Below are positions 36,676 through 38,868 of a DNA stretch of 48,229 bases, in pieces; position 1 is the stretch's first letter; the number at the start of each line of letters is the position of its first letter. The stretch comes from Terriglobia bacterium (GTDB lineage Bacteria > Acidobacteriota > Vicinamibacteria > Vicinamibacterales > CAVVIG01). The notes beneath the pieces were generated by a model, which searched no databases, had not been told where the DNA came from, and worked only from the letters and a program-made list of their open reading frames with translations. A program made the translations under genes and the position numbers. The DNA lies in contig JAIQFX010000033.1 of NCBI GenBank assembly GCA_020073005.1, forward strand, positions 1 to 48,229. Direction: 5' to 3'.

Positions 36676-36706
36676 GTGGGGTCTGGAAGTATACCAACCG
36701 GGTTGT

Positions 36707-36715
36707 TGCTATAAT
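36707..36715 (+). promoter_or_regulatory. Extended -10 promoter for erpA, near-leaderless
   Basis: TGCTATAAT is a perfect extended -10, ending 6 nt before the erpA ATG (36722). The predicted start site coincides with the start codon, so the transcript would be leaderless. The -35 region has no clear match, as tolerated by extended -10 promoters. Confidence 0.65.
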
Positions 36716-36721
36716 GTTGGC

Positions 36722-37048
36722 ATGATCAACGTGTCACCGACGGCGGCGGAGAAAATCAACGAGCTGCTGACCGAAGAGAACCGGGCCGGCAGCGGACTGC
36801 GCGTGTTCGTTCAGGGCGGCGGCTGCTCGGGCTTCCAGTACGGCCTGATGATCGAAGAGAACGGCCAGGGCTCGGGCGATCAGGTGTTCGAATCGAACGG
36901 CGTCAAGCTGTTCGTCGATCCGATCAGCATCCGGTACCTGAGCGGCGCGGAAGTGGACTTCGTGGATACGGTCACGGGCGGCGGCTTCACGATCAAGAAC
37001 CCGAACGCGACGTCGACCTGCGGCTGCGGTCAGTCCTTCAGCGTTTAG
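36722..37048 (+). CDS. erpA: A-type iron-sulphur cluster carrier (ErpA/IscA family)
   Basis: This 108-residue protein carries the three cluster cysteines as GGGCSGFQYG and the C-terminal CGCGQSFSV. It receives Fe-S clusters from scaffolds and passes them to target enzymes. ErpA, rather than IscA or SufA, is inferred from the GxxVxFVDTVTGGGFTIKNPNATSTCGCG end and from isolation from isc/suf genes. A Fur-ferritin regulator follows immediately, suggesting iron-linked expression. Confidence 0.92.
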   Translation: MINVSPTAAEKINELLTEENRAGSGLRVFVQGGGCSGFQYGLMIEENGQGSGDQVFESNGVKLFVDPISIRYLSGAEVDFVDTVTGGGFTIKNPNATSTCGCGQSFSV

Positions 37049-38014
37049 TTGGAACGTCCCCTTCCCGATCTCACGCGCCTGCGTCCCGCGGGCGGGAAGC
37101 GCTCCACCAAACGAGACCGCATCCTGACGGTGTTTCTCCGTCAGGAAGGGCACGTCAGCGCCGACGAGCTGGTCGACTTGGTGCGCCGCGAAGCGCCCGG
37201 CATCGGGCGCGCCACCGTGTACCGCACGCTGCAGTGGATGGTCGGCGCCGGCGTCGCGCGCAAAGTCGATTTCGGTGAAGGGCGGTCGCGGTTCGAGGCG
37301 TCCTACCGGCATCCGCGGCATTTCCACCTCATCTGCTCGTCGTGCCATCGCTCGTCCGAATTCCTGAGCTCCGACGTCGAGTCGCTGATGGAAGAGATCG
37401 CCGCCGCGCGCCACTTCGCGCCGACGCAAGCCGTCGTCCAGATTCACGGGACGTGCGAGGAGTGCCGCACCGGCAGGAAGACGCCGCCGGTCGACGGCGC
37501 GACGACCGAGCTGGTGTTCGCGCGCGACGCGCTGCGCATGGCGATCGCGACCGAGCGGAGCGGCCTCGAGTTCTACACGCGCGCGGCGTCGCAGACGACA
37601 GATCCGCGGGGCCGGACCGTGTTCCAGAAGCTCGCGGCCGAAGAGAAGGAGCACCTCGGCACGCTGCAGAAGCGCTATCGCGAGCTGGCGGCGAAAGATC
37701 CGCAGCTCGACTCGCGGCCGACGTTTCTGTTCTTCAAAGGCGCCGCGAGCGGGTTGTTCGCCGCGGGCGCCGAGGAGCTCCGCAAGGGCGGGGCGGACGA
37801 CGAGCAGGCGCTGCTCATCGGCATCCGCTGCGAGCGCGGCTCGCACAAGTTCTTCAAGCGCTACGGCGAGCGGTTCGAGGATTCCGAGGGCAAGCAGATC
37901 TTCCTCGAGTTCGCCGACGAGGAGCGCACGCACCTGGAGCTGCTGATTCGCGAGTACAAGGCGCTCCGCGATCGCCAGGGCGCGCGCGCGAGGAAAGCGG
38001 CGGCGCGCCGATGA
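37049..38014 (+). CDS. Fur-family regulator fused to a ferritin-like di-iron domain
   Basis: This 321-residue fusion has a Fur winged-helix region (about 1-140) with IGRATVYRTLQWMVGAGVARKV, the HFHLICSSC metal segment (His91/His93, C96/C99) and CEEC (C136/C139). A linker follows, then a ferritin/rubrerythrin-like four-helix bundle (about 155-305). Ligands are complete: Glu169, Glu199-xx-His202, Glu262 and Glu292-xx-His295. Fur proteins repress genes when metal-bound, so the di-iron domain could add iron or peroxide sensing (inference). The TTG start directly follows the erpA stop, with no obvious ribosome-binding site. Its end overlaps the PHP gene start as ATGA. Confidence 0.88.
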   Translation: MERPLPDLTRLRPAGGKRSTKRDRILTVFLRQEGHVSADELVDLVRREAPGIGRATVYRTLQWMVGAGVARKVDFGEGRSRFEASYRHPRHFHLICSSCHRSSEFLSSDVESLMEEIAAARHFAPTQAVVQIHGTCEECRTGRKTPPVDGATTELVFARDALRMAIATERSGLEFYTRAASQTTDPRGRTVFQKLAAEEKEHLGTLQKRYRELAAKDPQLDSRPTFLFFKGAASGLFAAGAEELRKGGADDEQALLIGIRCERGSHKFFKRYGERFEDSEGKQIFLEFADEERTHLELLIREYKALRDRQGARARKAAARR

Positions 38015-38868
38015 TCGATCTTCACACGCACACGACGGCGTCCGACGGGCGGTTGTCGCCGTCGCAGCTCGTCGCGCGCGCGGCGTCCGCCGGCGTGACG
38101 GTGCTGGCCGTCACCGACCACGATACGGTCGCCGCGTGCGGCGCCGTCGCCGATGCGTGCGCGAAGGCGCGGATCACGTTCGTCCCCGGCATCGAGATCA
38201 CCGCGGTGCTGATGGGCGACGACATCCACATGCTCGGCTATTTCTTCGATCCGCAGTCGCCGGCGCTCGCGACGTTCCTGGAATCGCAGCGGCGCCGGCG
38301 CATCGATCGCGTGCGCGAGATGGTCGATCGTCTGGCGCGGTTCGACATCCATCTCGACGTCGAGGCGATTCTGCGGCCCGGACTCGAAGACGCGACGAAA
38401 TCCGTGGGCCGGCCGTGGATCGCGCGGGCGCTGATCGCGGGCGGGCACGTCGCGACGATGGACGAAGCCTTCGATCGCTGGCTCGCGCGCGATCGCCCCG
38501 CCTTCGTGCCGCGCGCGGCCGCCGTGCCGGCGGAAGTCATCGCGCGTATCCACGACGCGGGCGGCATCGCGTCGATCGCGCATCCGGGTCTGCTCGGGCA
38601 CGACGAATGGATTCCGGGGTTCGCGGGCGCGGGCCTCGACGCCATCGAAGCGCATCACTCGCGCCACGACGCCGAGACGACGTCGCACTACCGTCTGATG
38701 GCCGAACGGATGCAGCTGGCGATCTCGGGCGGCTCGGATTTTCACGGCGACGATTCCCACGGCCCGGCGAATCCAGGCGCCGTCACGTTGCCGCGCGCGG
38801 ATTTCGATCGGCTGGCAAGGGGGACGGGTCTCGCAATGAATCGACGGCGAGACCCGTCCCCCTCCTAA
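38011..38868 (+). CDS. PHP-domain phosphoesterase (RNase AM/YciV-like)
   Basis: This 285-residue protein has the PHP motifs IDLHTHTTASDG, VTDHDTVAACG, PGIEITA, ASIAHPGLL and ISGGSDFHGDDSHG, giving a complete set of His/Asp/Glu metal ligands. The YciV/RNase AM group hydrolyses 3',5'-nucleoside bisphosphates and short RNA 5' ends. The start ATG 38011 overlaps the upstream stop. The last residues (LARGTGLAMNRRRDPSPS) are encoded by a perfect DNA palindrome that contributes the natural-looking C-terminus and lies next to the stop. Confidence 0.9.
   Translation: MIDLHTHTTASDGRLSPSQLVARAASAGVTVLAVTDHDTVAACGAVADACAKARITFVPGIEITAVLMGDDIHMLGYFFDPQSPALATFLESQRRRRIDRVREMVDRLARFDIHLDVEAILRPGLEDATKSVGRPWIARALIAGGHVATMDEAFDRWLARDRPAFVPRAAAVPAEVIARIHDAGGIASIAHPGLLGHDEWIPGFAGAGLDAIEAHHSRHDAETTSHYRLMAERMQLAISGGSDFHGDDSHGPANPGAVTLPRADFDRLARGTGLAMNRRRDPSPS
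38819..38862. repeat. Palindromic repeat forming the PHP protein C-terminus
   Basis: The arms are GGGGGACGGGTCTCGC (38819-38834) and its exact complement (38847-38862), around a 12-nt spacer. It is the same arm sequence and spacer length as at 11773-11814 but is read in a different frame. The TAA stop follows 3 nt after the right arm. Confidence 0.9.

Follow-up and report, generated by a model that had tools for sequence, protein, structure and literature searches.

Few bacterial regulators have been studied as thoroughly as Fur, whose known forms, to our knowledge, detect metal through sites within the Fur fold. A third metal site, which we take to be H87, D89, E108 and H125 in E. coli Fur, is not counted here as a defining feature of the family. 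Fur of E. coli (8j6w) and of Magnetospirillum (4rb2) shares with the protein described here a winged helix, a dimerisation fold, the residues H/E/H/H/E and a 7-1-7 palindrome at iron-uptake genes; the fusion differs by adding a whole ferritin-like domain and, within its order, by being without the third-site residues, and the predicted box of this order, TGAGAYTNARTCTCA, is a G/C-modified form of the Fur box. PerR belongs to the same family and has the same overall site, from which the fusion departs by a Glu for Asp104 (compared with the accessible part of PMC4866751). COG1633/erythrin proteins and rubrerythrin (2oh3, 2fzf, 1ryt) have the same four-helix bundle with E, ExxH, E and ExxH, whereas in the fusion this bundle forms the C-terminal part of a repressor and no rubredoxin was matched. 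MbfA likewise joins a ferritin-like domain to an iron-homeostasis protein, its partner being a VIT1-type exporter; it is a membrane exporter under Irr control, as given in the accessible part of PMC7762939, while the domain of the fusion sits in the regulator itself. Irr is a Fur-family iron regulator, as the fusion most likely is too. The initial annotation knew of no characterised example of this architecture, and none was found in the open-access literature (a scope that leaves out most subscription papers), either on Fur with rubrerythrin or ferritin-like domains or on a Fur so built from Vicinamibacter or other Acidobacteria. Both parts, Fur and erythrin, are known families; what would be new is their union in one protein that serves an order as its main regulator.

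The window, i.e. the whole stretch of 48,229 nt that was analysed, comes from a genome of the Vicinamibacterales (Acidobacteriota), and "order" refers to this order in all counts. The features of the locus are collected in Table 1. The start codon TTG of the fusion abuts the erpA stop codon TAG, in keeping with the position directly after erpA noted initially, and the translation of a relative (L003) has Met at the equivalent codon, which supports the TTG start. erpA was the next gene upstream on the same strand for 63 of the 64 distinct order fusions (match edges no more than 243 bp apart); for the 64th (L003/L034, one genome), an erpA broken by an internal deletion stands beside an intact fusion, which could be an assembly fault. 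No ErpA match was found within 2 kb upstream of any of the 27 fusion loci outside the order, some of which lie on short contigs. The erpA mRNA is probably leaderless. Between erpA and the opposite gene, which is FdhE-like with a Pfam match below the family cut-off, positions 36686-36715 of the window hold divergent extended -10 elements, with the form TATACCAA-N7/8-TTGGTATA in close relatives. In close relatives, a palindrome precedes erpA; it was considered as an operator and rejected, since it reads as these two divergent elements.

Table 1. Features of the erpA-fusion locus, with positions in the window
Feature	Position	Strand	Basis and remarks
TATAAT -10 element, erpA-fusion operon	36710..36715	+	ends 6 bases before erpA ATG; without Fur box
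erpA, A-type Fe-S carrier	36722..37048	+	Pfam Fe-S_biosyn; directly upstream of the fusion
Fur-erythrin fusion gene	37049..38014	+	321 aa, TTG start, TGA stop; ORF, Pfam, order-wide matches
Fur part, residues 11-141	37079..37471	+	winged helix, Zn site C96/C99/C136/C139, regulatory site H35/E83/H91/H93/E104
Ferritin-like (erythrin/COG1633) four-helix domain, residues 150-310	37496..37978	+	Pfam, model, structure and sequence alignment
Di-iron ligand codon E169, helix 1	37553..37555	+	
ExxH motif E199/H202, helix 2	37643..37654	+	
Di-iron ligand codon E262, helix 3	37832..37834	+	
ExxH motif E292/H295, helix 4	37922..37933	+	
PHP-domain gene	38011..38868	+	ATGA overlap with fusion stop; usual downstream neighbour within the order

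Residues were compared in an alignment of full-length fusions, 91 distinct sequences in all, of which 64 belong to the order (the one in the window among them) and 27 do not. Pfam FUR (PF01475) covers residues 15-132 (E 1.6e-24, 86.8 bits against a curated cut-off of 23.1). The Fur residues had been described as kept, which stands for the DNA-binding, zinc and regulatory sites but not for the third metal site. T56, Y58 and R59 of the recognition-helix region are in place, as are both CxxC pairs of the structural Zn site; C96 and C99 were kept in 63 of 64 order sequences (X in the remaining one), C136 and C139 in all 64, and all four Cys in 27 of 27 fusions outside the order. H35, E83, H91, H93 and E104 provide the His, Glu, His, His and Glu of the regulatory site, with E83 occupying the O-donor position equivalent to the Cys ligand of Zur, and E104, at the position of PerR Asp104, is found in 64/64 order and 27/27 outside sequences. 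The accessible part of PMC4866751 ties Asp104 of PerR to fast H2O2 sensing and gives Zur a Cys ligand in the regulatory site; by comparison with that text, a PerR-type reading of the Fur half is ruled out by the Glu and a Zur-type reading by the lack of a regulatory-site Cys. With this Glu, the site within the Fur half is not expected to sense peroxide in the manner of PerR. Together with the four Cys, the regulatory residues mark an iron-type Fur. The third-site positions of E. coli Fur align to R90, F92, E111 and A128; within the order, R90 was found in 64/64 sequences, F92 in 60/64 and S, A or T at position 128 in 63/64, while the fusions outside the order mostly have His at the third-site positions. 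The third site is thus absent within the order.

In the second half, Pfam Rubrerythrin (PF02915) was matched in two stretches, the best at residues 160-215 (whole-protein E 3.9e-12, 47.1 bits against a cut-off of 22.8). By sequence alignment, the four ligand motifs are in register with 2fzf and the di-iron ligands lie at the positions initially claimed. No rubredoxin family was among the Pfam matches of the fusion up to E 1. An AlphaFold2 model (input alignment of 29 sequences) has four long helices after a Fur fold, with a mean pLDDT of 82.7 and a pTM of 0.61, at which the relative placement of the two domains is not fixed by the model. The matches listed by Foldseek were Fur-family structures. 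In VIA-align, for which values under about 13 are common among helical bundles, the second half matched 2oh3 (COG1633; Z 15.7, rmsd 2.5, 134 aligned) and rubrerythrin 1ryt (Z 14.5, rmsd 3.2, 140 aligned); this comparison covers the best 50 rows, and families beyond them may match too. With one 321-aa reading frame, two Pfam domains, order-wide conservation and a model of both folds, the fusion of Fur to a ferritin-like domain is real, as first reported. A role as the organism's only iron store was ruled out by a separate ferritin (PF00210), present in the source genome as well as 53 of 60 order genomes.

The fusion was the one Fur-family match in the source genome. Across the order, a Fur-family match was obtained in 140 of 148 genomes, exactly one in 88, and comparison of the match tables identified the sole Fur-family protein as the fusion in about 86 of the 148; two genomes (G025, G048) have a single match that is not the fusion. 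Given this sole-Fur status, the iron-type sites and the predicted box beside iron genes (below), the fusion is most likely the order's main iron repressor, in agreement with the iron regulator suggested initially. A repressor role is very probable on these comparisons; that the fusion is this main repressor and also carries the di-iron domain as a second input for iron or oxidants is judged somewhat better than even, and gating of the repressor by the di-iron centre is put forward tentatively. The mechanism proposed, a possible one, is a two-site Fur in which a mononuclear Fe(II) site is combined with a di-iron centre that would gate binding to the operator according to how much iron is present and to oxidation state. 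The Fe(II)-loaded Fur half would bind the box just downstream of the -10 element at uptake promoters (FTR1, FeoAB, TonB receptors) and, to judge from comparative genomics, block transcription of iron-uptake genes at sufficient iron; the C-terminal erythrin domain would bind a di-iron centre, and DNA binding may respond to how far this centre is occupied or to its oxidation state. If true, one protein would merge the jobs of Fur and of a PerR-like sensor and serve a whole order, with older relatives across the phylum. Reliance of a whole order on a Fur equipped with a di-iron domain of its own would reveal a new way in which a single repressor can be wired to both iron level and oxidants. With operators and targets predicted (FTR1, FeoAB, TonB receptors and ferritin), the role is directly testable, and lineages in which the di-iron ligands, a Fur ligand or the gene altogether have been lost provide natural experiments.

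The six di-iron ligands were complete in 62 of 64 order sequences and in 17 of 27 from outside, so that the loss of ligands in all homologues, named initially as a refutation, does not apply. This conservation within the order favours a metal role of the ferritin-like domain, although the ten remaining outside fusions, all of family f42, lost at least one ligand and kept the Fur ligands and most fold residues. As these ten retain the fold, not every Fur so built needs the di-iron centre, and the ten leave room for a structural role. In such a reading, which seems unlikely, the domain would reinforce dimerisation of Fur, standing in for the lost third site, and its metal would be structural; the replacement of third-site residues within the order, with mostly His outside, also speaks for it. 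Against it, ligand conservation in the order resembles that of the Fur metal sites, and a Fur ligand is gone as well in the sole order sequence with ligand loss. One of the two order exceptions is a sequence cut by a contig end; the other, L116 of genome G028, lacks five of the six di-iron ligands and has H35R too. G028 has another Fur-domain protein, whose FUR match (E 4.7e-33) was stronger than any other in the search; in the tree, this protein joins a Campylobacterota Fur (88/93, long branches). With di-iron ligands and a Fur ligand lost and a second Fur present, this genome is a natural experiment. Outside the order, nine of the ten ligand-poor genomes were examined for further Fur proteins, and all nine have at least two Fur-family matches, as do 5 of 11 genomes whose ligands are intact; almost all of these nine belong to one genus, and the tie between ligand loss and an extra Fur is a hint only.

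The ferritin-like domain could instead act as a guard, a ferroxidase or peroxidase that clears H2O2 or excess Fe(II) locally and keeps Fur metallated under aerobic conditions. The complete ligand set and the rubrerythrin/COG1633 fold would suit such an enzyme, and rubrerythrins are described as peroxide scavengers in the accessible part of PMC5114695; nevertheless, a rubredoxin-type electron-transfer domain was not matched by Pfam and one enzyme per repressor amounts to a small capacity, which makes this role distinctly unlikely as the main one.

Binding sites were searched in the source genome with the general Fur-box pattern at up to two mismatches, which gave 37 sites versus 6 in the reversed control; 25 of the 37 lay inside genes according to a simple gene call. 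The site TGAGACTGAGTCTCA is located 21 bp before an FTR1 iron permease gene (Pfam FTR1, E 5.1e-30), and the perfect palindrome before this gene led to the refined pattern TGAGAYTNARTCTCA, with which 45 sites versus 13 in the control were found at up to two mismatches. Besides FTR1, no evident iron gene was found behind the general-pattern sites read or behind 18 more refined-pattern sites of the source genome, where FTR1 is the one clear predicted target.

The exact refined box was present in 73 of 148 order genomes, with none in the reversed control of each; it was absent from the other 75, many of them fusion-bearing, and these 75 include every genome sampled from families f10, f11 and f15, where the fusion is present in most. 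The first site was read in 30 of the 73 box-bearing genomes. Adjoining genes encoded FTR1 (12), a TonB-receptor plug (8), FeoA/FeoB (5), ferritin (1), PepSY_TM (1), CbiX (2) and an unknown product (1), so that 26 of the 30 sites adjoin iron genes (FTR1, FeoA/FeoB, TonB receptors, ferritin). The genes of 20 sites were scanned with Pfam, 19 of them with a match, and those of the other ten were assigned by eye as close likenesses. At 7 of the 30 sites, the box lies inside the longest reading of the frame, and the gene start is uncertain there. A ferritin gene (PF00210) at L222 has about three tandem Fur-like boxes upstream, an arrangement that would fit direct control of iron storage.

Nowhere along its 48,229 nt does the window, which holds the fusion's own operon, match the box consensus at 12 or more of 14 positions. 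Control of erpA or of its own operon by the fusion was rejected on this ground, and the erpA promoter, initially proposed as the place for a binding assay, is not an evident target: such sites stand before FTR1, FeoA/FeoB, TonB receptors and ferritin elsewhere in the order. erpA would be a conserved operon partner and not a predicted target of the fusion.

An FTR1 search of 100 order genomes gave relatives in 38; 40 FTR1 upstream regions were fetched, 39 of them usable. A score of at least 11 of 14 against the refined box was reached at 28 of 35 FTR1 loci of fusion-bearing genomes and at none of the four from fusion-less genomes (G025, G076, G082, G087), compared with about 1.3% of letter-shuffled upstream regions. 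The coupling of box and fusion has a hypergeometric p of 0.004, with the four fusion-less loci all from family f15 and not independent; in f15, a good box was present at one of three scored fusion-bearing loci (L198; not L177 or L182). A promoter was recognised at 20 of the 28 boxed loci, with the box beginning 11-16 bp after the -10 hexamer, placed as an operator would be.

Some iron-gene promoters, namely FTR1 promoters (among L163-L200) and the TonB-receptor promoters at L236, L248 and L249, carry a second palindrome that overlaps the -35 element and reads CCGACTTGACCGGTCGG or CCGACC-N5-GGTCGG. Among FTR1 loci, 13 of the 35 from fusion-bearing genomes have it, and so do all four from fusion-less genomes; at these four, the promoter and the second palindrome persist and the box is missing. 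Two of the fusion-less loci (L181, L194) have a further copy at the position of the Fur box. This palindrome may mark another iron regulator, which bears on the quite improbable case that a different protein binds the box and the fusion controls something else, e.g. its own operon or oxidant genes. Of the ten fusion-less genomes, three (G048, G079, G105) keep an exact box, that of G048 before feoB, as would be expected if box and fusion were separate, and the second palindrome at some shared promoters allows for another regulator. This is countered by the nature of the box, which is a 7-1-7 palindrome like that of Fur and stands next to iron genes in many genomes that have the fusion as only Fur, by its loss at all four fusion-less FTR1 loci that retain the second palindrome, and by the box-free window.

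Outside the order, the refined box was hardly above the control, with 28 sites versus 19 at up to one mismatch in 15 fusion-bearing genomes and 11 versus 3 in five genomes with a stand-alone Fur. Among the 17 loci returned there, none had the box before an evident iron gene; at L306, it lies inside a gene resembling an outer-membrane receptor by eye.

The fusion or pieces of it were found in 139 of 149 order genomes, most with near-full-length matches at 60-93% identity; of the remaining ten, three (G025, G048, G079) gave weak matches only and seven no match. That a sequencing or assembly error had joined neighbouring genes, the other refutation named initially, is practically discounted by an uninterrupted fusion in most of the 149 genomes, the single-contig genomes G003 and G016 included, and nothing in its favour was found, L117 alone being broken by ambiguous bases. 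The search for the same domain pair in other genomes, suggested at the outset, also gave near-full-length forms at 32-42% identity outside the order, at least 27 of them, within the same phylum and from at least ten families (f22, f25, f35, f42, f54, f59, f62, f67, f69 and f91). In four sampled genomes of other families in the same class, the best matches lay over the Fur part, one extending to residue 178. The check beyond the phylum consisted of one scan of genome contigs that reaches close relatives and is a weak test.

In a tree of Fur domains, the 18 order fusions used formed one clade (99/98), and 25 of the 27 outside fusions grouped together (94/76). The free trees separate the two sets, although a single clade of all fusions gave an AU p of 0.447, or 0.418 without two long-branched rows, and one origin of all fusions is not rejected by these sequences. 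Two records titled Acidimicrobiia (L012, L017) have the gene order erpA-fusion-PHP and fusions of 71-75% identity, and their titles are probably wrong. In genome G292, a stand-alone relative of the ferritin part (L108) is preceded by a run of N bases and is possibly a fusion.
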